DNA from: Candidatus Sulfopaludibacter sp. SbA3
GTDB taxonomy: Bacteria > Acidobacteriota > Terriglobia > 20CM-2-55-15
Assembly (NCBI GenBank): GCA_945865815.1
Contig: CAMBFR010000011.1
Coordinates: forward strand, 1-60,115
Length of the DNA stretch: 60,115 bases
Direction: 5' to 3'
Shown: positions 5,396 through 60,115 of the stretch, piece by piece
How the letters are laid out: every line of letters starts with the position of its first letter
Position numbering within the stretch: position 1 is the first letter of the stretch
The notes under the pieces: model-generated
Seen by the model: the letters and a program-made list of their open reading frames with translations, nothing else
The model's database searches: none
What the model was told of the DNA's origin: nothing
Made by a program: the position numbers and the translations under genes

Positions 5396-6419
5396 GGACT
5401 GCCATTAACTCTCTCGCCGCGCGGCATACATCTTCAGCTTCCACGAGTGTCATACACCGATGGTCGATCGGACATTCCCGAAGCATGCATGGGCTGCACT
5501 CCACATCGTGTTTCACGATTTTTGTTCGCGCGCCATAAGGTCCGGTCACTGTTTCGTCCGTGGATCCGAAAACCGCCACGGTCGGCACACCGAGCGCCGC
5601 CGCCATATGCATTGGACCCGAGTCGTTCGTGATCATCAAGGAGGATTCCGCGAGGATGCCTATCAGGACTTCCAGTGACGTCTTTCCGCTGAGCACTGCC
5701 GCGTTGCCGTTGAGTTCAGTCCTGATCGCTTCTCCGATCGGTCTTTCCATCACCGAGCCGACAATCGCCACGCGCAAGCCCATTTCTCGCGCGAGCGTGC
5801 CGCCCGCCCTTGCGAATCGCTCTTCGCTCCAGCGTTTCGCCGAGCCGTAAGCCGCGCCCGGATTCAATACGAGAAATGGCGCATCCTCGGGAATGCCCTC
5901 GGATTTAAGCAGCTTCCTCGCGTTTGCCCGTTCCTCGCGTGTGGCTTGAATTTCGATGGATTGCGTGCCGGCACCGTCCGCAATCGCCATCGCGAGCCTG
6001 AAATAATAGTCCACCTGGTGTTGCGATTCACGCGCCCGCTCGACTGCATGCGTAAGAAGCCAACTCCGCCCGTTTGTGCCGTACCCGACCCGTTTTGGAA
6101 CCCGTCCCACGAAAACCATCAACGCCGATTCGAACGAATTCGGCAGCAAGATCGCAAGGTCGAACCCGCCGCGCCGGATGGCCGAAGTGATTGCAGACCA
6201 TTCACCAAGGCTTGTGGGACGGGGTTCGCTCCATACCTTGTCAATGAAGGGAGCGGATGTGAAGAGTCCGGCAACCCATGGACGCACGAGCAGCGTGATT
6301 TCAGCTTCGGGGAAATTCGCGCGGACCGCCTTCATTGCCGGAATCGCCAATACGGAGTCGCCGACCCAGTTCGGGCCGCGGATCAAAATTCTGTTCAAAC
6401 CCTTGCCGGGAGCGAGCAT
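5388..6419 (-). CDS. waaF: ADP-heptose:LPS heptosyltransferase II
   Basis: A 343-residue GT-9 enzyme with ILIRGPNWVGDSVLAIPA at residues 11-28, the NWxGD motif typical of WaaF, and ITNDSGPMHMAAALGVP in the C-terminal donor-binding domain, followed by a Cys cluster (CSPCMLRECPIDHRCM). It adds the second heptose to the LPS inner core. ATG 6419 overlaps lpxK by 25 bases; a TTG at 6398 would remove the overlap, so the exact start is uncertain. Confidence 0.9.
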   Translation of the reverse strand: MLAPGKGLNRILIRGPNWVGDSVLAIPAMKAVRANFPEAEITLLVRPWVAGLFTSAPFIDKVWSEPRPTSLGEWSAITSAIRRGGFDLAILLPNSFESALMVFVGRVPKRVGYGTNGRSWLLTHAVERARESQHQVDYYFRLAMAIADGAGTQSIEIQATREERANARKLLKSEGIPEDAPFLVLNPGAAYGSAKRWSEERFARAGGTLAREMGLRVAIVGSVMERPIGEAIRTELNGNAAVLSGKTSLEVLIGILAESSLMITNDSGPMHMAAALGVPTVAVFGSTDETVTGPYGARTKIVKHDVECSPCMLRECPIDHRCMTLVEAEDVCRAARELMAVHA

Positions 6420-30342: not shown

Positions 30343-32743
30343 ATGGCCCTGAAGAAATCCGAACTCTACTCCTCGCTCTGGTCCGGTTGTGACGAGCTGC
30401 GCGGCGGCATGGACGCCAGCCAATACAAGGACTATGTCCTCGTCCTCCTCTTCATCAAATATGTCAGCGATAAATACGCCGGCGTGCCCTACGCGCCGAT
30501 CACGATTCCTGAAGGGGCCAGCTTCGCAGACATGGCCGCGCTCAAGGGCAAGCCATCCATTGGCGACGACATCAATAAGAAGATCATCGGACCGCTGGCC
30601 GGCGCCAACAAACTGTCGGACCTGCCCGATTTCAACGACGCCACAAAGCTGGGCAGCGGCAAGGAGATGGTCGACCGCCTTACCAATCTCATCGCCATCT
30701 TCGAAAACAAGTCGCTCGACTTCTCGAAGAACCGCGCCGACGGCGACGACATTCTGGGTGACGCCTACGAATACCTCATGCGTCACTTCGCCACCGAGAG
30801 CGGCAAGAGCAAGGGCCAGTTCTACACTCCGGCGGAAGTCAGCCGGATCATGGCGCAGATCATCGGCATCCGCGGCGCGAATACAACCAGCTCCACCACG
30901 GTCTATGACCCCACGTGCGGCTCCGGTTCGCTGCTGCTGAAGGTGGGAGACGAGGCCGGCGCCAGGGTCACGCTTTACGGACAGGAGCAAGGATGCCGCC
31001 ACCAGCGGCCTCGCCCGGATGAACATGATCCTGCACAACAATCCCACGGCGCTGATCGTGCAGGGCAACACGCTGGCCGATCCCAAATTCAAGGATGGCG
31101 ATACGCTCAAGACCTTCGATTACGTGGTCGCGAATCCGCCATTCAGCGATAAGCGCTGGTCGAATGGCATCGATCCGCTCCACGATCCGTATGATCGCTT
31201 CCAGCCTTTCGGGGCGCCGCCCGCCAGGCAGGGCGATTACGCCTACCTGCTGCATATCGTCCGGTCGCTCAAGAGCACCGGCAAAGGCGCGTGCATCCTG
31301 CCGCACGGCGTCCTGTTTCGAGGGAATGCGGAAGCCGGCATCCGCCGCAATCTCATCCGCAAGGGCTACATCAAGGGGATCATCGGCCTTCCCGCGAACC
31401 TCTTTTATGGCACCGGCATTCCCGCCTGCATCGTCGTTGTCGACAAGCAGGACGCCCACGCCCGCAAGGGCATCTTCATGATCGACGCCAGCGGCGGCTT
31501 CATGAAGGACGGCCCCAAGAACCGCCTGCGCGCCCAGGACATCCAAAGGATTGTGGATGTGTTCAACAAGCGGCTCGAAGTGCCGAAATACGCGCGTATG
31601 GTCAGCGTCGAGGAAATCGAAAAGAACGAGTTCAACCTCAACCTGCCGCGCTACATCGACAGCCAGCAGCCCGAAGACATTCAGGATATCGAGGGGCACC
31701 TGCGCGGCGGCATTCCCACCGCCGATGTCGACGCCCTCCAGGGATACTGGACTGTCTGCCCGCAACTCCGCGAGACCCTGTTCAAGCCGAACCGCCCCGG
31801 CTACGTGGACCTCGCCGTAGAGAAGACGGCGATCAAGTCCGCCATCTATGACCACCCCGAGTTCGCCGCTTTCATCAGCGGCATGAACGCCCACTTCGCC
31901 GCCTGGCGGCAGAAGACCGCCCGGACCCTGCGCGAGTTGAAGGCCGGCTGCCATCCGAAGGAAATCATCGCTGCGCTTTCGGAGGACCTGCTCGCCCACT
32001 ACACCGGCAAGCCGCTGATCGACAATTACGATGTCTATCAACATCTGATGGACTACTGGTCGGAAACCATGCAGGACGACTGCTACCTCATCGCCGCCGA
32101 CGGCTGGAGAGCCGAAACCTCACGCATCATTGAGAAGGACAAGAAGGGCAAGGAGAAGGACAAGGGGTGGAACTGTGACCTTGTGCCCAAGGCCCTCATC
32201 GTTGCCCGCTACTTTGCGAAGGATCAGACGGCCATCGATCAACTTGCGGCAGAACTGGAGAGCGTCACCGCCAAGCTTGCCGAACTGGAGGAGGAACACG
32301 GCGGCGAGGAGGGCGCCTTCTCCGAACTCGAAAAGGTGAACAATGCTTGTGTCACCGCCCGCGTGAAGGAAATCAAAGTCGACATGGAAGCGACGGCCGA
32401 ATCCGCCGCGCTCAATGACTGGCTGAAACACAACGAGCAGGAAAGCGACCTTAAGAAGCGCCTCAAAGACGCCGAGATTGCGCTCGATGCCAAAGCCTGC
32501 GCCCACTATCCCAAACTCACTGAGGTCGAGATCCAGACGCTGGTAGTAGACGATAAATGGCTCGCCACGGTCGACGGCACTATTCACGGCGAGATGGACC
32601 GCGTGAGCCAGCAACTCACTCGGCGGGTGAGAGAACTGGCCGAACGCTACAAGCAGCCCCTGCCGGAGATAGAGCGCGAAGTCGCCGCGCTGGAGACAAG
32701 AGTCCGGGGACACTTGGAACAGATGGGGTTGCGTTGGCGATGA
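30343..32743 (+). pseudogene. hsdM: Type I restriction-modification methyltransferase subunit, frameshifted
   Basis: From ATG 30343 the frame gives an N-terminal helical domain, KGQFYTPAEVSRIMAQIIG, and VYDPTCGSGSLLLKVGDEAG (SAM motif I) up to LYGQE. There an extra C at 30988 shifts the frame; it then continues KDAATSGLARMNMILHNNPT in the next frame, with ANPPFSDKRW (catalytic NPPF) and a ~250-residue C-terminal extension rich in charged coiled coil. Removing one base restores a ~800-residue HsdM. The protein methylates adenine in the HsdS-specified site. The defect may be genuine or an assembly error. Confidence 0.85.
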
Positions 32744-33891
32744 TCCAGGCTCCACCTAACGCACAAGAAATGCCCACATGGGAGCGCGCCCATCTCAAGG
32801 ACGTGGTCATCTTTAGGAGCGGACATCGCAACTCCGATACAGCCGTCGTGGATGGCGAATTTCCATTCTTTATCTGCTCCAACGAAGTTCTACGTTCCAA
32901 TGAATTTGATTTCGATGACGAAGTCGTTGTAATGGCAGGAAACAATGCCGATGGAGTCTTCCATCTTCACCATTTCAACGGAAAGTTTGCGGCGCGTCAG
33001 CGTACGTATGTTATTACCCCCAGCACGAAGCGACTCGACTGTCGCTACCTCTTCTACCAGTTGGGAGTCTTACAGCGGTCATTTCAGGCCGAAGCAATCG
33101 GAACAACAACACTGTATGTAACTATCAGGATGCTCCGGGCCGCAAAGATCCCATTGCCAAAATTGGAAGTCCAACGCGCAATCGCCGAGGCGTTGAGCGA
33201 TGCGGATGCCTTCATCGAATCCCTGGAGCAACTCCTCGCCAAGAAGCGCCAGATCAAACAGGGCGCCATGCAGGAATTGCTCACCGGCAAGAAGCGCCTG
33301 CCTGGCTTCAGCGGGAAGTGGAATGTGAAGCGGATTGCAGAGATTGCATCCCTAAGGTCTGAAAAGAACAGCACAGGTGAGGCTCTCACTGTCTTAACGT
33401 GCTCAAAGCACGTGGGGTTTGTCGACTCGTTGAGCTACTTTAAGAACCAAGTGTTTAGCAGGGATACCAGTGGCTACAAAGTTATCAGGAGGGGAGAAAT
33501 TGGCTATCCATCGAACCATGTTGAGGAAGGCTCTATTGGGCTTCAGGACCTCTACGATGTGGCGCTCGTCAGCCCAATTTACGTCGTTTTCTCGATAGTC
33601 GAAGGAGTCAATAGTTTCTTCTTTCACAGACTTTTGAAATTGGATTCCTATCGTCAAGAGTTCGCGACAGCGACGTCATCCTCGGTCGACAGACGAGGGA
33701 GTTTACGATGGCCTACTTTCTCGGAAATCATCGTTAGGTTGCCACGCTTTGAAGAACAAACCGCCATCGCTGTCATCCTCTCCGACATGGACGCCGAGAT
33801 CGCCGTGCTGGAAGCCAAGCTCGCCAAAGCCCGAAACATTAAACAAGGCATGATGCAGGAACTGCTCACCGGTAGAATCCGGCTGGTATGA
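32740..33891 (+). CDS. hsdS: Type I restriction-modification specificity subunit
   Basis: A 383-residue protein with two target-recognition halves, each ending in a similar coiled spacer: AEALSDADAFIESLEQLLAK...IKQGAMQELLTGKKRL and AVILSDMDAEIAVLEAKLAK...IKQGMMQELLTGRIRL. This twofold layout is diagnostic of HsdS and sets a bipartite target. ATG 32740 overlaps the hsdM stop (ATGA), fixing the start. GC content and codon usage of the two recognition domains look more AT-rich than the neighbours, as expected for exchangeable recognition domains. Confidence 0.93.
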   Translation: MIQAPPNAQEMPTWERAHLKDVVIFRSGHRNSDTAVVDGEFPFFICSNEVLRSNEFDFDDEVVVMAGNNADGVFHLHHFNGKFAARQRTYVITPSTKRLDCRYLFYQLGVLQRSFQAEAIGTTTLYVTIRMLRAAKIPLPKLEVQRAIAEALSDADAFIESLEQLLAKKRQIKQGAMQELLTGKKRLPGFSGKWNVKRIAEIASLRSEKNSTGEALTVLTCSKHVGFVDSLSYFKNQVFSRDTSGYKVIRRGEIGYPSNHVEEGSIGLQDLYDVALVSPIYVVFSIVEGVNSFFFHRLLKLDSYRQEFATATSSSVDRRGSLRWPTFSEIIVRLPRFEEQTAIAVILSDMDAEIAVLEAKLAKARNIKQGMMQELLTGRIRLV

Positions 33892-35588
33892 AGCGAAAGC
33901 GGATTTTCGTGAGCAGCGTGCAGCGGGAACTGGCGGTGGAACGGGCCGCGCTGCGCGACTACCTGCACGACGATCCGCTCCTGCGCCGCTTCTTCGACGT
34001 CTTCCTCTTCGAGGATCTGCCCGCCTCCGACCAGCGCGCCGGCGCGGTGTACCTGAACGAGGTCGCGCGGTGCGACGTGTATCTCGGCCTCTTCGGCCGC
34101 GAGTACGGCGCGCCGAACGCAGATGGACTCTCGCCGACCGAGCGGGAGTTCAATCGGGCCACCGAGCTTCTGAAGCCGCGCCTGATTTACGTCAAGGGCG
34201 CTGACGACAAAGTGCGGCACCCGAAGATGCGCGCGCTCATCCAGAGGGCGGGCTCCGAGCTGATTCGCCGGCGCTTCAACGACACCGCCGGCCTCCTGCC
34301 CGCCGTGTACGCCTCGCTTGTCGGTTGGCTGGAGGAGCGCCGGCTTCTCCTGAACGGCCCCTTCGATGCGGCGCCCTGCCCGAAGGCCACGCTGAAAGAC
34401 CTCGATCCGGCCCGCATGAAAGCGTTCATCCGGGACGCCCGCGCGTCGCGCGGTTTCCTGCTGCGCGAGTCGGCCACCGCCAGGCAACTGCTCACGCACT
34501 TGAACCTTCTCGATGACGGCCATCCGGCAAATGCGGCGGTGCTGGTCTTCGGACGGGCGCCGCAGCGCTTCCTGCCTTCGTCGGAGATCAAGTGCGCCCA
34601 CTTCCACGGCACGGAAGTGGCAAAGCCGATTCCTTCGTACCAGGTCTACAAGGGCACGGTCTTCGCCCTTGTGGATCAGGCCGTGGACTTCGTGATGTCG
34701 AAGCTGGCGCTTCGCGTCGGTACCCGCGCCGGCGGTGCGAAGGCGCCGGTAGCGTACGAGATCCCCCGCGAAGTGGTGGCCGAGGGCATTGTCAACGCGG
34801 TGGCCCACCGCGATTACGCAAGCAGCGGAAGCGTTCAAGTGATGCTGTTCGCCGACCGCCTCGAGATTTGGAATCCCGGCGGTCTGCCGGCGTCGTTGCC
34901 GCTCGCGCGCCTGCTTAAGCCGCACGGATCGGTGCCACACAATCCGCTGGTCGCCGAGCCGATGTATCTGACCCAGTACATCGAACGCCTGGGCACCGGC
35001 ATCGGCGACATGTTCCGCCGGTGCCGCGAGGCCGGGCTCCGGAAGCCGGCCTTCGCTGTCACGGACGGCATCAAGCTGACCATCTGGCGCGACGGCCGTT
35101 CCCCCGTCAACAGTTCGGTAGAAACTTCGGGGAAAACTTCGGGGAAAACTTCGGGGAAAACTGGCGATTTCATTGTCGCGCTGATGCAGGAGCAGCCGGA
35201 CATCACGATCCCTGAGATCGCCCAACGCCTTGGCAGGACAGCACGGGGCGTGGAATTGCAGCTCCGGCGGCTCCGGAAAGCGGAGGTCATCGGCCGCGTC
35301 GGTCCGGCAAAGGGAGGCCGCTGGGAGGTCTTGAATCGGGGTGAAAATGTCGGGGAAGGGGTCGGGGAAAAAGGTCGGGGAAAAAGGTCGGGGAAAAAAC
35401 TGACGGCCAACCAGCAAAGCATACTGGAGCTGCTGTTCCAGCATCCTATGATGGCTGCACCCGATCTGGCGGAGATCGTCGGAATTTCCGAGCGTAAGAT
35501 CGAGCAAAATATCGCCACTCTGAAGCGAATGGGACAACTGAAGAGGGTTGGCCCGGCCAAGGGCGGTCATTGGGAGGTCGTGAAGTAG
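33888..35588 (+). CDS. DUF4062 / RecG-like ATP-binding protein with tandem-repeat linkers and two winged helices
   Basis: A 566-residue protein. Residues ~1-110 form a DUF4062 domain (KRIFVSSVQRELAVERAALR). Residues ~160-400 match the RecG-like ATPase/transcriptional-regulator group (VVAEGIVNAVAHRDYASSGS, LEIWNPGGLPASLPL, YLTQYIERLGTGI). Then comes linker 1 (TSGK x3), a winged helix (IPEIAQRLGRTARGVELQLR), linker 2 (VGEG, VGEK and degenerate units), and a second winged helix (APDLAEIVGISERKIEQNIA). Both winged-helix units end in VGPAKGG-WEV, so the linker-wHTH block is a duplication. It overlaps hsdS by four bases; related genes often sit within type I loci, but their role is not established. 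Confidence 0.8.
   Translation: MKRKRIFVSSVQRELAVERAALRDYLHDDPLLRRFFDVFLFEDLPASDQRAGAVYLNEVARCDVYLGLFGREYGAPNADGLSPTEREFNRATELLKPRLIYVKGADDKVRHPKMRALIQRAGSELIRRRFNDTAGLLPAVYASLVGWLEERRLLLNGPFDAAPCPKATLKDLDPARMKAFIRDARASRGFLLRESATARQLLTHLNLLDDGHPANAAVLVFGRAPQRFLPSSEIKCAHFHGTEVAKPIPSYQVYKGTVFALVDQAVDFVMSKLALRVGTRAGGAKAPVAYEIPREVVAEGIVNAVAHRDYASSGSVQVMLFADRLEIWNPGGLPASLPLARLLKPHGSVPHNPLVAEPMYLTQYIERLGTGIGDMFRRCREAGLRKPAFAVTDGIKLTIWRDGRSPVNSSVETSGKTSGKTSGKTGDFIVALMQEQPDITIPEIAQRLGRTARGVELQLRRLRKAEVIGRVGPAKGGRWEVLNRGENVGEGVGEKGRGKRSGKKLTANQQSILELLFQHPMMAAPDLAEIVGISERKIEQNIATLKRMGQLKRVGPAKGGHWEVVK
35124..35159 (+). repeat. Coding tandem repeat, 3 x 12 bp
   Basis: Three exact copies of ACTTCGGGGAAA, each encoding TSGK, in the first linker of the DUF4062/RecG-like gene. 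The unit is a multiple of three, so copy-number change would alter linker length without shifting the frame. Confidence 0.95.
35349..35400 (+). repeat. Coding tandem repeat with 13-bp units
   Basis: Units: GTCGGGGAAGGG (12 bp), GTCGGGGAAAAAG twice (13 bp each), GTCGGGGAAAAAAC (14 bp). Because 13 is not divisible by three, each unit is read in a different frame (VGEK, then RGKR, then SGKK). Gain or loss of one unit, or slippage in an A5/A6 run, would shift the frame of the C-terminal winged helix. Confidence 0.95.
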
Positions 35589-35642
35589 ACCACTACGGGA
35601 TCTTGATGTTGCTTGCCCCTTCGGGCTAGCGTAAGGGCCAAT

Positions 35643-35897
35643 ATGAGCCTCGAAATCAAATCCGATCAGGAAGCAAAGATCGCTGCACTTGCCGCCAGTA
35701 TGGGTCGTGACAAGACAGACATCCTCGAACAGGTGATTGACAGCTATTTCGATGACCTGGATGACGTCCGCAAGATTCTTGACCGCCGGTACGACGACTT
35801 CAAGAGCGGCCGCGTCCAGAGTCTTACGCCGGAGGAATCCCGCGATCATGTCGATCGACGCAAACGAGAGTTCTTGAAGCAGCGTCATGAGCCCTGA
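35643..35897 (+). CDS. Ribbon-helix-helix antitoxin-like protein
   Basis: An 84-residue protein starting MSLEIKSDQEAKIAALAASM, then GRDKTDILEQVIDSYFDDLD, a ribbon-helix-helix N-terminal domain, followed by an extended charged tail that in ParD/RelB-like antitoxins wraps the toxin. Its stop codon overlaps an ATG at 35887, the standard site for a toxin start, but that frame ends after ten codons. It is therefore an orphan antitoxin in the restriction locus. A GCCCCTTCGGGC hairpin precedes it. Confidence 0.7.
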   Translation: MSLEIKSDQEAKIAALAASMGRDKTDILEQVIDSYFDDLDDVRKILDRRYDDFKSGRVQSLTPEESRDHVDRRKREFLKQRHEP

Positions 35898-35919
35898 CTA
35901 CAAAGGCGTTCCAGTTTAG
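35887..35919 (+). pseudogene. Possible toxin start remnant (10 codons)
   Basis: ATG overlapping the antitoxin stop, encoding MSPDYKGVPV then TAG. The MSP-Y opening resembles RelE/ParE-type toxin N-termini, but the match is too short to be sure. No further toxin-like sequence is seen before the convergent DUF2442 gene. Confidence 0.3.
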
Positions 35920-35935
35920 CGATGGGATTCGCTTC

Positions 35936-36238
35936 TTACCGTCGGGGCGGGCGCGCCGACAACCAGCGCTCGAATGACTTCCGGCTTTCACCGCTTCGGT
36001 TTCCTGCCAGAAGGCCTTGGACTCCGATATGTTCGTCGAGGTCGGGCCACTCGATGGCGTAGCCTTTGCCCAGAAGAGTCCAGTTCCGCTGTTCTTTGCG
36101 CCCGGCCTGTGCGAGGCGTGGATACCATTCCAAAGGCACTGCAAGAGTCCGGCCATCGACGAAATCGACAATCAATTTCTCGCTGCGGATGGCGATTTTC
36201 AGAGCTTTCGGTTCATTTTGAAAAGTCAAAGTAGTCAT
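35936..36238 (-). CDS. DUF2442-domain protein
   Basis: About 100 residues from ATG 36238, starting MTTLTFQNEPKALKIAIRSE, with VDFVDGRTLAVPLEWYPRLA and EWPDLDEHIGVQGLL, the DUF2442 pattern. It overlaps the DUF4160 gene by 26 bases. Such DUF4160/DUF2442 pairs are suspected two-component toxin-antitoxin-like modules; the biochemical role is unproven. A longer frame reaching 36301 would extend further into the upstream gene and is not preferred. Confidence 0.78.
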   Translation of the reverse strand: MTTLTFQNEPKALKIAIRSEKLIVDFVDGRTLAVPLEWYPRLAQAGRKEQRNWTLLGKGYAIEWPDLDEHIGVQGLLAGNRSGESRKSFERWLSARPPRR

Positions 36239-36455
36239 GCCAAGCCTCGACGAGCATTGTCTCATATTGCGCCAGGAGACGGGCGATGCGGTCCAGTTCA
36301 TGCTGTCTGAACCCGTCGTTCGTTTCCAGCGTTACAGGCTTCAGCCAGAACTTCGCGATCTGCCGATCGCGCTTTACATGGATGTGGACCGGTTCGTCTT
36401 GATCCGAACTGAAGAAGACGAACCGGTATGGACCAACCTGCAGGACGCACGGCAT
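36213..36455 (-). CDS. DUF4160-domain protein
   Basis: An 80-residue protein from ATG 36455: MPCVLQVGPYRFVFFSSDQD, EPVHIHVKRDRQIAKFWLKP, then a C-terminal helix with HELDRIARLLAQYE and EAWHDYF. This matches DUF4160 over its full usual length, and the MPxVL opening favours this start over ATG 36486. It is first in a two-gene unit with DUF2442, antisense to the flanking restriction genes. Confidence 0.78.
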   Translation of the reverse strand: MPCVLQVGPYRFVFFSSDQDEPVHIHVKRDRQIAKFWLKPVTLETNDGFRQHELDRIARLLAQYETMLVEAWHDYFDFSK

Positions 36456-36521
36456 GACCCGCGTCAAATGCAGGTCTTGTTCCATTCGTAAACGATTGAG
36501 TGAGCATTGGCTCTTGTCTAT

Positions 36522-36535
36522 TTGTCGCGACAAAC
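36522..36535. promoter_or_regulatory. Candidate operator palindrome TTTGTCGCGACAAA
   Basis: A perfect 14-bp palindrome in the divergent interval between the DUF4160 start and hsdR. Its position suits an autoregulatory operator for the DUF4160/DUF2442 pair or a control site for hsdR. Functional role is inference. Confidence 0.4.
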
Positions 36536-36615: not shown

Positions 36616-39600
36616 ATGATGCAGAACCTGCTTTCCTGGAAGGATTCGAGGGATATGAATATCGGCCAACCCGAACGCGCCACTCAGAACCGCGTCATCA
36701 AGCTCTTCCGCGATGAGCTCAAATACCGTTACCTGGGCGACTGGACCGAACGCGACGGCAACACGAACATCGAAACGCACCTGCTGACGCCCTTTTTGAT
36801 CCGAAGCGGCTACAGCGCGGCACAAGTGAACAGGGCCATCGGCCTGCTCTGCGCCGAAGCGGACAAACACAGTCGAGGCCTATACGGGAACAACCAGGCG
36901 GTTTACGGCCTGCTGCGTTACGGCGTTCCGGTGAAGACCGAGGCCGGCAAGGTGACGGACACCGTTCACCTCATTAACTGGCAGGAACCGGACCAGAACG
37001 ACTTTGCCATCGCCGAGGAGGTGACGCTCAAGGGGAACCACGAGCGGCGGCCCGACCTCGTCCTGTATGTGAACGGCATTGCCGTCGGCGTGCTCGAGTT
37101 GAAGAACAGCCGCGTTTCAATCGGCGACGGCATCCGCCAAAACCTTTCCAACCAGCAACCCGAGTTCAATGAGTGGTTCTTCAGCACCGTGCAGTTCATC
37201 TTCGCTGGAAACGACTCCGAGGGACTGCAATACGGAACCATAGGCACGCCTGAAAAGTATTTCCTGAAGTGGAAAGAAGATGAACAGGACAACAGCCGAT
37301 TCAAGCTGGACAAGTATCTGCTCAAGATGTGCGCCAAACATCGGCTGATCGAGATGATGCACGATTTTGTGCTTTTCGACGGAGGCGTGAAGAAGCTGCC
37401 CCGCGTTCACCAGTACTTCGGCGTCAAGGCCGCTCAAAAACATGCGCGGGAGCGCAAAGGCGGAATCATCTGGCACACGCAGGGGAGCGGCAAGAGCATC
37501 GTGATGGTGTTCCTGGCGAAGTGGATTCTGGAGAACAACGCCAATGCCCGCGTTGCCATCATCACGGACCGCGACGAACTGGACAAACAGATCGAACGGG
37601 TCTTCACCGAAGCGGGCGAGCCGATCCAGCGCACCAGCAGCGGGCGGGACTTGATGAAGCAGTTGGCGCAGGCGACCCCTCGCCTGCTGTGCTCCCTGGT
37701 TCATAAATTCGGCAAGCGGGATGTGGACGACTTCGACGCTTTCATCAAGGAACTGGAAGCGCAGCCCACCCAGACAGCGGGCGAGGTCTTTGTTTTCGTG
37801 GACGAATGTCACCGCACGCAGACCGGCAAACTGCACCGGGTGATGAAAGCCATGATGCCCAACGCCGTGTTCATCGGCTTCACCGGCACGCCGTTGCTCA
37901 AGCAGGACAAGGCTACCAGCCTGGAAGTCTTTGGCGGCTACATCCACACTTACAAGTTCAGTGAGGGCGTGGAAGACGGCGTGGTGCTCGACCTCGTCTA
38001 TGAGGCGCGCGACATCGATCAGCAACTGGGCTCCGAGGACAAGATCGACGCGTGGTTTGAGGCCAAGACCCGAGGGCTCAACGACTGGCAGAAAGACGAG
38101 CTGAAGAAGCAGTGGGGCACGATGCAGAAGGTCCTCAGCTCGAAGTCCCGCATGGACCGGCTGGTGAGTGACATCGTCTTCGACTTCAACATCAAACCCC
38201 GGCTTTCCAGCGAAAGGGGCAATGCCATCCTGGTGGCCTCCAGCATCTACGAGGCGTGCAAGTATTTCACCCTCTTCCAGAAAACGCGATTCAAGGACAA
38301 GTGCGCCGTCGTGACCTCCTACAATCCCCAGGCACAAGACGTGACCAAAGAAGAAACAGGCGCGAACACGGAAACCGACAAGCAGTTCCTGTACAACACC
38401 TACACCGAGCTGCTGAAGGACGTCGAGGCCAGGCCCGGCATGACAAAGACAGAGACCTACGAGGAGCGCGCGAAGGCCCTGTTCACGAAGGAGCCCGCCA
38501 ACATGAAGCTTCTCGTCGTGGTGGACAAGTTGCTCACCGGCTTCGACGCCCCGCCCTGCACCTATCTCTACATCGACAAGTCCATGCAGGACCACGGCCT
38601 GTTCCAGGCGATCTGCCGCACCAACCGGCTGGACGGCGACGACAAGGACTTCGGTTACGTCGTGGACTACAAGGACTTGTTCAAGAAGGTCGAGAACGCC
38701 ATGGCTGTATACACCTCAGAGCTGGATCAGAGCGCGGGCGGGGCCGCCCCCGAGGTGCTGCTGCAGGATCGCCTCCGGAAAGGGAAGGAACGCCTCGACA
38801 ACGCGCTCGAAACCCTGGCGTTGCTGTGCGAGCCGGTGGAGCCGCCAAAGGGAGAGTTGGAACACATCCATTACTTCTGCGGCAACACAGAGATTCCCGA
38901 AGATCTCAAGGAACGCGAACCGCACAGGGCCGCGCTCTACAAGGCCACGGTGGCGCTGGTGCGCGCCTACGCCAACATCGCCGATGAACTGGAAGCCGCC
39001 GGATACCAAAGCGCCGAGATCATCCGAATCAAGCAGCTACTGGACCATTACCTGAACGTTCGCGAGATCATCCGCAAAGCCAGCGGCGAGAGCCTCGACC
39101 TGAAGGCTTACGAGGCCGATATGCGGCACCTCATCGACACCTACATCGAAGCCAGTGAGCCCAGGAAGATTTCGCCCTTCGACAACATGAGCCTGCTGGA
39201 TCTGATCGTGAAGACCGGCATTGCCGGCGTGATCGCAGCGCAGCTCGGCGGCTTGAAGGGAAACAAGAACGCCATAGCCGAGACTATCGAGAACAATGTC
39301 CGCAGCAAGATCATCAAGGAACACCTGAACGACCCCGCCTATTTCGAGAACATGTCCGCCCTTCTCGACGAAATCATCGCCGCCCGGAAAGCGAAGGCAA
39401 TCGAGTATGAGGAATACTTGAAACGGATCGCCGAGCTGGCCAGGAAAGTGGAGGCAGGCCACGCCGAAGACACACCGGAGCGACTGAATACACCGGGCCG
39501 CCGCGCTTTATACAACAACCTGAATCAGAACGAAGAACTGGCCATCAAGATTGACGATGCCGTTAAGAAGGTCCGGCCTGACGGGTGGCGCGGAGTCCAA

Positions 39601-39702
39601 ACTCGCGAGCAAGTCATAAAAGGGGCGTTGTATGAGGTATTGCACGATGAGGTTCAGGTGGAACGCATCTTCCTGATCCTTAAAGCGCAGAGCGAATACT
39701 GA
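36616..39702 (+). CDS. hsdR: Type I restriction endonuclease subunit R
   Basis: A 1,028-residue protein. The nuclease domain has ERRPDLVLYVNGIAVGVLEL then KN (PD-ELK-type active site, about residues 140-160). The translocase has Walker A IWHTQGSGKS near 290, VDECHR (DEAD-like) near 395 and FTGTPLLK, followed by helicase domain 2 (VVDKLLTGFDAPP, ICRTNRLDGD). HsdR cleaves unmodified DNA after ATP-driven translocation. The start may be 36616 or ATG 36655 (MNIGQPERATQ), which has GAGGGAT close by. It is intact, whereas hsdM is frameshifted. Confidence 0.93.
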   Translation: MMQNLLSWKDSRDMNIGQPERATQNRVIKLFRDELKYRYLGDWTERDGNTNIETHLLTPFLIRSGYSAAQVNRAIGLLCAEADKHSRGLYGNNQAVYGLLRYGVPVKTEAGKVTDTVHLINWQEPDQNDFAIAEEVTLKGNHERRPDLVLYVNGIAVGVLELKNSRVSIGDGIRQNLSNQQPEFNEWFFSTVQFIFAGNDSEGLQYGTIGTPEKYFLKWKEDEQDNSRFKLDKYLLKMCAKHRLIEMMHDFVLFDGGVKKLPRVHQYFGVKAAQKHARERKGGIIWHTQGSGKSIVMVFLAKWILENNANARVAIITDRDELDKQIERVFTEAGEPIQRTSSGRDLMKQLAQATPRLLCSLVHKFGKRDVDDFDAFIKELEAQPTQTAGEVFVFVDECHRTQTGKLHRVMKAMMPNAVFIGFTGTPLLKQDKATSLEVFGGYIHTYKFSEGVEDGVVLDLVYEARDIDQQLGSEDKIDAWFEAKTRGLNDWQKDELKKQWGTMQKVLSSKSRMDRLVSDIVFDFNIKPRLSSERGNAILVASSIYEACKYFTLFQKTRFKDKCAVVTSYNPQAQDVTKEETGANTETDKQFLYNTYTELLKDVEARPGMTKTETYEERAKALFTKEPANMKLLVVVDKLLTGFDAPPCTYLYIDKSMQDHGLFQAICRTNRLDGDDKDFGYVVDYKDLFKKVENAMAVYTSELDQSAGGAAPEVLLQDRLRKGKERLDNALETLALLCEPVEPPKGELEHIHYFCGNTEIPEDLKEREPHRAALYKATVALVRAYANIADELEAAGYQSAEIIRIKQLLDHYLNVREIIRKASGESLDLKAYEADMRHLIDTYIEASEPRKISPFDNMSLLDLIVKTGIAGVIAAQLGGLKGNKNAIAETIENNVRSKIIKEHLNDPAYFENMSALLDEIIAARKAKAIEYEEYLKRIAELARKVEAGHAEDTPERLNTPGRRALYNNLNQNEELAIKIDDAVKKVRPDGWRGVQTREQVIKGALYEVLHDEVQVERIFLILKAQSEY

Positions 39703-40418
39703 TGTCTACGAAGATCGGGCTGGGTGAAATTTCCGTCGAGGTGGTAAAAAAGGACATCAAGAACGTTCACTTAAGCGTCTATCCTCCCGCCGGGCGAGTG
39801 CGAATCTCCGCTCCGCTGCGGATGAGTCTCGCGGCCATTCGCGTCTTTGCCATTTCGAAACTCGGCTGGATCAGGCAACAGCAGAACAAGCTGCGAGGGC
39901 AGGAGCGCGAAACGCCCCGCGAGTATCTCGATCGTGAGAGCCATTACGTGTGGGGAAAACGTTACCTGCTTGAAGTGAAGGAAAGCGATGCCGCGCCCGC
40001 CGTCGAGCTCAGGCATAAGAAGATTCATCTGCGGGTGCGCCAGGGCCCGGGCAATGAAAAGAAGCAGGCCATTCTCGAAGAATGGTATCGGGAGCAGCTC
40101 AAGCGGGCCGTTCCACCATTGATCGCCAGGTGGGAGCCCCTCATCGGCGTCAAGGTGAACCGATTCTTTACGCAAAGGATGAAAACGAAATGGGGTGGCT
40201 GCCGCCCTGGGTCCGGAAGCATACGGCTCAATACGGAGCTGGCCAGGAAACCGCCGCAATGCCTCGAATACATCCTGGTGCATGAAATGATCCACCTGCT
40301 GGAGTCCACGCACAGCGCCCGTTTCGTGGACTTGATGAATCAGTTCATGCCGCAGTGGCGATTTTACCGCGCCGAGTTAAACCGGCTGCCCGTGCGGCAT
40401 GAGGAGTGGGGTTATTAG
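39702..40418 (+). CDS. YgjP/DUF45-type zinc metallopeptidase
   Basis: A 238-residue protein with the HExxH motif in ILVHEMIHLLESTHSARF near residue 190 and the family marker TKWGGCRPGSGSIRLNTELA before it. The N-terminus (VVKKDIKNVHLSVYPPAGRV) fits the same group. It overlaps hsdR by one base. YgjP-like peptidases are common neighbours of type I restriction systems, where they may process or turn over a subunit; this is inference. Confidence 0.85.
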   Translation: MSTKIGLGEISVEVVKKDIKNVHLSVYPPAGRVRISAPLRMSLAAIRVFAISKLGWIRQQQNKLRGQERETPREYLDRESHYVWGKRYLLEVKESDAAPAVELRHKKIHLRVRQGPGNEKKQAILEEWYREQLKRAVPPLIARWEPLIGVKVNRFFTQRMKTKWGGCRPGSGSIRLNTELARKPPQCLEYILVHEMIHLLESTHSARFVDLMNQFMPQWRFYRAELNRLPVRHEEWGY

Positions 40419-59968: not shown

Positions 59969-60115
59969 TGTCGGTAGCAAGTAGAAATGTCCGGTTTTTG
60001 TAGCAAGTGATCTGTCCGGTTTTGTTGTTTTAAGTTCATCGCCGCCGTGCCTGTGGAAATGTGCGAAACCCAGCAGGGTTTTGCACATTTCCATCAGGCT
60101 GCCTTCTTCTTTCTT
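59969..60115. mobile_element. Probable insertion-sequence terminus at the window edge
   Basis: Two imperfect direct repeats, GTAGCAAGTAGAAATGTCCG-GTTTT (about 59974-59998) and GTAGCAAGTGATCTGTCCGGTTTT (about 60000-60024), preceded by TGTCG, resemble multiple transposase-binding repeats at the end of an IS. Beyond, the minus strand has an open frame running off the edge (KKEEGSLMEMCKTLLGFAHF...). No transposase motif is visible here, so the family cannot be named. The 59832-59968 stretch upstream shows no gene. Confidence 0.4.

Follow-up and report, generated by a model that had tools for sequence, protein, structure and literature searches.

Tandem 11–13-bp repeats in a gene of a type I restriction-modification locus may be a built-in DNA target rather than a phase-variable switch

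Introduction

Classical phase-variable genes contain coding repeats with units not divisible by three. Two short tandem arrays were found in a gene of a type I restriction-modification locus within the 60,115-nucleotide window (the whole stretch of DNA analysed here), and a preliminary description proposed that the second of them could work as such a switch, removing the C-terminal winged helix (WH; WH1 and WH2 are the first and second of the host gene). The question raised by this locus is whether the arrays serve to turn the gene product on and off or have another function. Comparison with relatives suggests that they may be less an on/off switch than a built-in DNA target, which the protein may recognise in its own gene.

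The Host Gene and Its Locus

The locus includes, in order, hsdM, hsdS, the host gene, a RelB-like ORF, an opposing DUF2442/DUF4160 pair, hsdR and YgjP (Table 1). The RelB-like ORF and the opposing pair occupy positions 35640–36533 of the window, between the host gene and hsdR; in the relative L021, hsdR directly follows the counterpart of the host gene. YgjP/SprT-like metallopeptidase is the usual neighbour of this type of hsdR in the relatives compared. The frameshift in hsdM is located outside any long homopolymer and could be either a real lesion or an assembly error; both hsdM halves are in a single frame in L021 and L035. The true start of hsdS is probably near the hsdM stop.

Table 1. 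Coordinates of the locus, the host gene and its parts in the window
Feature	Position	Strand	Basis
hsdM, split by a one-base frameshift near 30988	30343–32743	+	Two ORFs in different frames, contiguous N6_Mtase halves
hsdS ORF	32557–33891	+	Pfam Methylase_S
Host gene (DUF4062, middle region, HATPase_c_4, array-WH-array-WH; 566 aa)	33888–35588	+	ORF, Pfam, AlphaFold model
DUF4062 domain (TIR-like NADase family), residues 5–91	33900–34160	+	Pfam PF13271, E=2e-18; alignment; PMC13174449
HATPase_c_4 (PF13749), residues 315–392	34830–35063	+	Pfam, E=3e-18
Array 1, 12-bp unit AAACTTCGGGGA x3.4, encoding disordered linker (TSGK)3	35122–35162	+	TRF score 82; pLDDT <50 at 404–422
WH1	35151–35330	+	Pfam HTH_24 429–468; model: helices 422–464, strands 468–481
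Array 2, GTCGGGG units with A5/A5/A6	35344–35399	+	TRF score 82 (35344–35398), period 13, 4.3 copies
WH2	35406–35579	+	Pfam HTH_11 509–549; AlphaFold model 507–564
hsdR	36616–39702	+	TIGR00348, E=4e-153
YgjP/SprT-like metallopeptidase	39702–40418	+	Pfam; next to hsdR in relatives too

The host protein probably carries a TIR-like NADase-type domain, judging by its DUF4062 match and the motif T84-E85-x-E87-F88, of which T84-E85-x-E87 is invariant in an alignment of 11 proteins (KpSwz is not among them). According to PMC13174449, DUF4062 is an NADase family and antiphage system, E97 is the conserved active-site Glu of KpSwz, the NADase activity of this protein needs supramolecular assembly, and its HTH/winged auxiliary domain binds the phage portal. 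The host protein resembles the Swarozyc/DUF4062 NADase of that text in its N-terminal DUF4062 with an invariant Glu motif, its C-terminal HTH/winged module and its defence-type neighbourhood. It differs in its HATPase_c_4 region and its array-WH cassettes (no array is mentioned in the available text of PMC13174449), and its NADase role is a predicted one.

In the AlphaFold model the array-encoded stretches (residues 404–422 and 484–502, pLDDT <50) are disordered linkers between better-modelled domains. The best match in fold and sequence over the HATPase_c_4-WH region is DIP2311 (PDB 3LMM), an uncharacterised structural-genomics entry, whose overall superposition on the host model is poor (TM 0.24).

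The Two Arrays of the Window

Arrays 1 and 2 are the top two tandem arrays of the 60-kb window according to TRF, and the gene, linkers and units were correctly recognised in the preliminary description. The in-frame 12-bp unit reported for the first linker is confirmed; its copies are perfect and precede WH1. The second linker had been described as made of 13-bp units with A5 and A6 runs. Here the array and its runs (A5/A5/A6) stand, while the uniform length does not: GTCGGGG starts at 35349, 35361, 35374 and 35387, and the spacings are therefore 12, 13 and 13 bp. The arrays have the 10-mer TCGGGGAAAA in common. Three frames are used to read this core, giving VGEK, RGKR and SGKK, the drift noticed earlier. 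Ten matches to TTCGGGGAAAA with at most one mismatch were found vs 1.56 ± 1.23 expected, and six of these ten are inside the two arrays. A 25-bp repeat (GTAGCAAGTAGAAATGTCCGGTTTTT-like) is present in two copies near the window end (59974–60023).

Slippage in array 2 would have the predicted consequence. The native product of 566 aa is reduced in silico to 500 or 540 aa by loss or gain of one unit, and to 504 or 536 aa by loss or gain of one A. WH2 (residues ~507–564) is lost in all four products and WH1 is kept.

Occurrence of Arrays among Relatives

Relatives of the host gene (50–74% identity over the best segment) come from many bacterial phyla and from methanogenic archaea, mostly as metagenome-assembled genomes, one genome per species. 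A similar hsd locus surrounds about one quarter of them; the others have diverse neighbours. An 11–13-bp-type array is found beside the WH in 68 of the 80 relatives, and the contigs of L026, L049 and G332 end inside arrays. The density of TRF arrays is 2.10/kb in the 450 nt after the HATPase domain vs 0.023/kb elsewhere in the same loci (~90-fold). The period is 12 in 54 arrays, 11 in 13 arrays and 20–24 in a few.

Arrays are immediately next to the segment that encodes the WH. Two-WH genes have one ahead of each WH (array-WH-array-WH in the window, L037, L070 and L155), and with other WH types the arrays are placed at the stop codon or past it. Class E genes (L083, L089, L091, L100), which are DUF4062/HATPase genes with a different WH type, have two triplets of GGGACA-like motifs with ~10–11 bp spacing that straddle the stop codon. 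In Poribacteria, arrays of 11–12 bp lie beyond the stop codon, ahead of hsdR where hsdR follows.

The possibility that arrays are a general promoter element of hsdR was considered and rejected: since the downstream genes are diverse, control of hsdR is not general, yet in several Poribacteria the array does lie between the gene and hsdR. Around the genes, extra copies of the motif do not exceed chance (27 matches vs 34.7 expected). No copy was found near the promoter, so that classical autorepression is not obvious.

Exact array triplets were also detected in eight viral contigs, outside WH genes. Phage contigs L111 and L115–L118 have three to five perfect 12-bp TTCGGGGAAAAC-type units between genes; in L115 such an array (5706–5753) is near the major head protein and terminase genes. 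No class-A WH gene is present on the examined stretch of these five contigs. Three perfect CGTCGGGGAAAA units are placed in L113 (956–1002) directly upstream of the RBS of a small phage gene (phrog_98). The search found no viral carrier of the host gene, and no class B or class C array pattern in viral contigs.

Conservation of the Repeat Unit as DNA

Judged by codon choice, the repeat unit is constrained as DNA, and its reading frame may change. The PES arrays are written CCA GAG TCA/TCG: all 15 genes have CCA (2.9 expected from their own codon usage) and 14 of them have GAG (5.6 expected). TCG/GGG/AAA is used by all six genes with SGK arrays. Among GEV arrays (GGG GAA GTC), GGG occurs in seven and GAA in all of the eight genes, and TREK-type arrays have AGG for Arg in 4/4 genes (0.3 expected).

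Pairwise codon identity within arrays reaches 0.81 (PES), 0.78 (GEV) and 1.00 (SGK). The same gene pairs have values of 0.38–0.42 at identical body residues and 0.38–0.41 in the following WH, so that recent transfer of the whole segment fails to explain the identity of the arrays. The smaller REK set points in the same direction (0.67 in the array vs 0.48 in the body and 0.33 in the WH).

The core is read in several frames not only in the window (three) but also in the array of L031 and in a Treponema Fic gene (two each), and 11-bp arrays of the GGCACCAAGTC type run through all frames.

Coupling of Arrays to Winged Helices

The Mantel correlation between array and WH is 0.763, or 0.743 given the body (p=0.0005, n=63; related genes are non-independent samples, which the partial Mantel test and the flanking-codon control take into account without removing the dependence). 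For array and body given WH it is −0.004 (n=63). The GG-[HRY]-W class of WH taken alone has a partial array-WH r of 0.72 (p=0.0002, n=21). By these correlations, changes in array sequence accompany changes in the WH, not in the remainder of the protein.

The array and its WH are, moreover, exchanged as one cassette. Among Methanomicrobiales (methanogen) genes, bodies 84–91% identical at the DNA level are combined with TSGK, TREK or QPES arrays, and each of these array types comes with a WH type of its own.

The same coupling is seen in other proteins. Plasmid searches with the WH only yield Fic proteins that have matching motifs ahead of the WH (AGTTCGGAGAAAA in Treponema, ATGTCGGAAGAA in Klebsiella), as well as AlbA_2 proteins (ACTAGGGTAAAA in Aliarcobacter); Fic genes with the same WHs have the same kind of motif. 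A Deinococcus Fic gene and an archaeal DUF4062 gene have the ACCCCCCAAGTC unit in common; CGGCTAGAGTC appears both in L065 and in cyanobacterial and Azotobacter plasmid genes. Fic genes of Azotobacter and Shewanella are situated between hsdS and hsdR. The Fic-WH genes L120 and L124, between hsdS and hsdR, are in the same slot as the window gene. In Azotobacter, an HTH gene (L157) placed between brxC and pglX of a BREX system has a CGGCTAGAGTCG array. A population search of 5,426 E. coli genomes found no relative of the window gene or of the Klebsiella Fic gene. Array queries gave no BLAST hits either, with 48-mers in these E. coli genomes or in phages and plasmids, but the repeat filter would itself hide such matches.

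An unbiased search of 396 genomes of the phylum, with three TCGGGGAAAA units as the pattern, gave five reported matches, two of them overlapping, i.e., four distinct arrays (two in G000, one each in G316 and G332). Three of the four are in frame and directly before a WH; the fourth, in G332, lies at a contig end and follows the AlbA_2/HATPase-like portion of a gene of this kind. With the reversed pattern as a control, the same 396 genomes gave no match.

Proposed Function of the Arrays

The best explanation of the 11–13-bp arrays is neither a peptide feature nor primarily a switch. It appears moderately probable that the array is part of the WH module, serving as its DNA target, and that it is bound by that WH within its own gene. 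From the analysis as a whole we infer such binding by the adjacent WH, as well as the control of the own gene that would result.

The WH could bind its array as a row of direct-repeat sites, and several protein copies would thereby gather on the gene that encodes them. Since the target sits in linker-coding DNA, a domain swap would bring domain and target together. The simplest outcome could be local autoregulation, by a roadblock or by repression within the 3′ portion of the gene, extending to cotranscribed downstream genes. Effectors that may be toxic (DUF4062 NADase-type, Fic) would in this way be held at low levels. The in-frame 12-bp units could reconcile the reading frame with sites placed about one helical turn apart on the DNA. 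The 13-bp units of the window would represent tolerated frame drift, in which the net shift (three single-base steps) returns to frame.

Several observations stand against this explanation. Covariation of WH and array could partly reflect physical linkage and common descent; however, the body, which is equally adjacent to the array, shows no covariation. Noncoding arrays have periods of 12 as well as 11 bp, so there is no strict helical rule. Identical array triplets exist in phage contigs with no nearby WH gene. Finally, WHs can sense proteins, and since the HTH/winged domain of KpSwz binds the phage portal (PMC13174449), the present WHs may have a protein-sensing role as well.

Alternative Explanations

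The array could instead be a recombination seam, a hot spot at which WH cassettes are swapped. This is unlikely, albeit the best placed of the alternatives: it accounts for array-WH cassettes exchanged on nearly identical bodies and for the tandem array-WH duplications in the two-WH genes. A seam should nevertheless be alike for all WH types, yet each WH type has arrays of its own and array sequence tracks the WH; other arrays are at or after the stop codon rather than at the junction.

A flexible peptide linker grown by repeat slippage, with incidental sequence and no DNA role, is improbable. Predicted disorder agrees with it, as does the near identity of copies, which slippage predicts. Slippage, however, explains identity within a gene only, not the same unit and the same rare codons across phyla with scrambled synonymous sites in the flanks, and frame drift and arrays beyond the stop codon are not covered.

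About equally improbable is an RNA-level element, in which repeats in the mRNA would be bound by the protein or act in translation or decay. Every array is on the sense strand, within or just after the ORF, and AlbA_2 relatives are annotated as RNA-binding. Against this, the array tracks the WH and not the AlbA/HATPase body, the 11–12 bp periodicity suits DNA better, and units of classes A, B and C have no obvious hairpin (judged without folding).

Slightly poorer still are the chances of a phase-variable switch, with slippage in the 13-bp/A-run array occurring at a selected frequency and so controlling the presence of WH2. Its frame logic is sound. The unit of the coding repeat in the window gene is not divisible by three, and a change of a single unit or a single A shifts the frame in silico and truncates WH2; slippage may indeed break WH2 occasionally. 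Array length is also unstable: it is 5 vs at least 7 units in genes with bodies 99.0% identical, and ranges from ~1 to 10 units in Chlorobiaceae with bodies 94–96% identical. Copy number, however, changes by whole units, and the length changes between close relatives are of whole, in-frame 12-bp units, which are frame-neutral and used by most of the family.

The relatives are not in random frame states. Arrays with units that are not multiples of three are in frame with the WH in the window gene, in L037 (both linkers), L039, L043, L048, L056, L066, L069, L080, L093 and L099, in the first linkers of L045/L051 and in the Treponema Fic gene (L119). The only out-of-frame case is linker 2 of L045/L051, two species with bodies 97.6% identical. 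There (L045/L144, L051/L145) WH2 is intact and is placed one frame off the upstream ORF, after an 11-bp ACCACCAGAAA array. This state looks fixed rather than alternating, because it is common to both species. A phase switch leaves the family-wide facts unexplained, among them the conservation of the unit as DNA, even past the stop codon. The function proposed in the preliminary description is thus unsupported.

Least probable of all is an assembly or sensing platform, in which binding to tandem sites would oligomerise the DUF4062/Fic effector and foreign arrays or the state of the own array would trigger it: KpSwz does need supramolecular assembly for its DUF4062 NADase activity (PMC13174449) and phage contigs do contain exact triplets outside WH genes, but these contigs are only eight, and the idea gives no reason for the protein to stay inactive on its own array.

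Relation to Known Systems

The preferred reading, a DNA target bound by the adjacent WH, has a precedent in lambda O. This protein, of the winged-helix type, binds tandem direct repeats that lie within gene O itself, where an interdomain linker is encoded. Its iterons are ~19 bp long and located at the replication origin; specificity and sites travel together. The arrays described here share with iterons that they are tandem direct repeats within the gene of a WH (DNA-binding) protein, in linker-coding DNA, kept as DNA and co-varying with the DNA-binding domain. They differ from those of lambda O in having units of 11–13 bp, in belonging to proteins without a replication domain and in being found on chromosomes and plasmids of many phyla, including archaea, with a binding that we infer. 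A role in replication initiation finds no support, since Pfam scans detected no replication domain and the genes are in restriction-modification, BREX or unrelated chromosomal contexts.

Iterons of RepA_N are within the rep gene in known plasmids. RepA_N initiators bind iterons through their DNA-binding domain (PMC7145576). They differ from the present proteins in being replication initiators of another protein family, with longer, semi-palindromic iterons.

In EcoR124-type HsdS, variation in the number of in-frame central 12-bp repeats alters a linker by 4 aa, and the length of the peptide spacer matters. The 12-bp repeats in a gene of a restriction-modification locus are a common trait; here, by contrast, the DNA is kept, frames drift and the gene is not hsdS. 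Unlike classical phase-variable genes, most relatives use units that are multiples of three, and they conserve the DNA unit across phyla. A search of literature with few subscription journals, covering intragenic operators and COG2865, AlbA_2 or Fic in connection with repeats, found no account of the arrays.

Implications

It is possible, and proposed here tentatively, that a WH together with its tandem DNA target in linker-coding DNA forms a self-contained recognition cassette. Such a cassette would be widespread and previously undescribed. It would be swapped between DUF4062 NADase-type, AlbA_2/HATPase and Fic effectors across bacteria and archaea, so that each effector recognises and controls its own gene.

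If this is true, the tetrapeptide linkers TSGK, QPES, TGEV, TREK and SRDQ of proteins annotated as Fic or RecG-like would be a by-product of selection on DNA, and caution would be needed before such repeats are taken as signals of phase variation. If the WH binds the array, each gene announces its own site; the DNA specificity of many uncharacterised defence-associated proteins would then be readable from sequence, and testable in one EMSA. The pattern of an array that follows its domain is a rare natural record of a DNA-binding domain and its site moving jointly.
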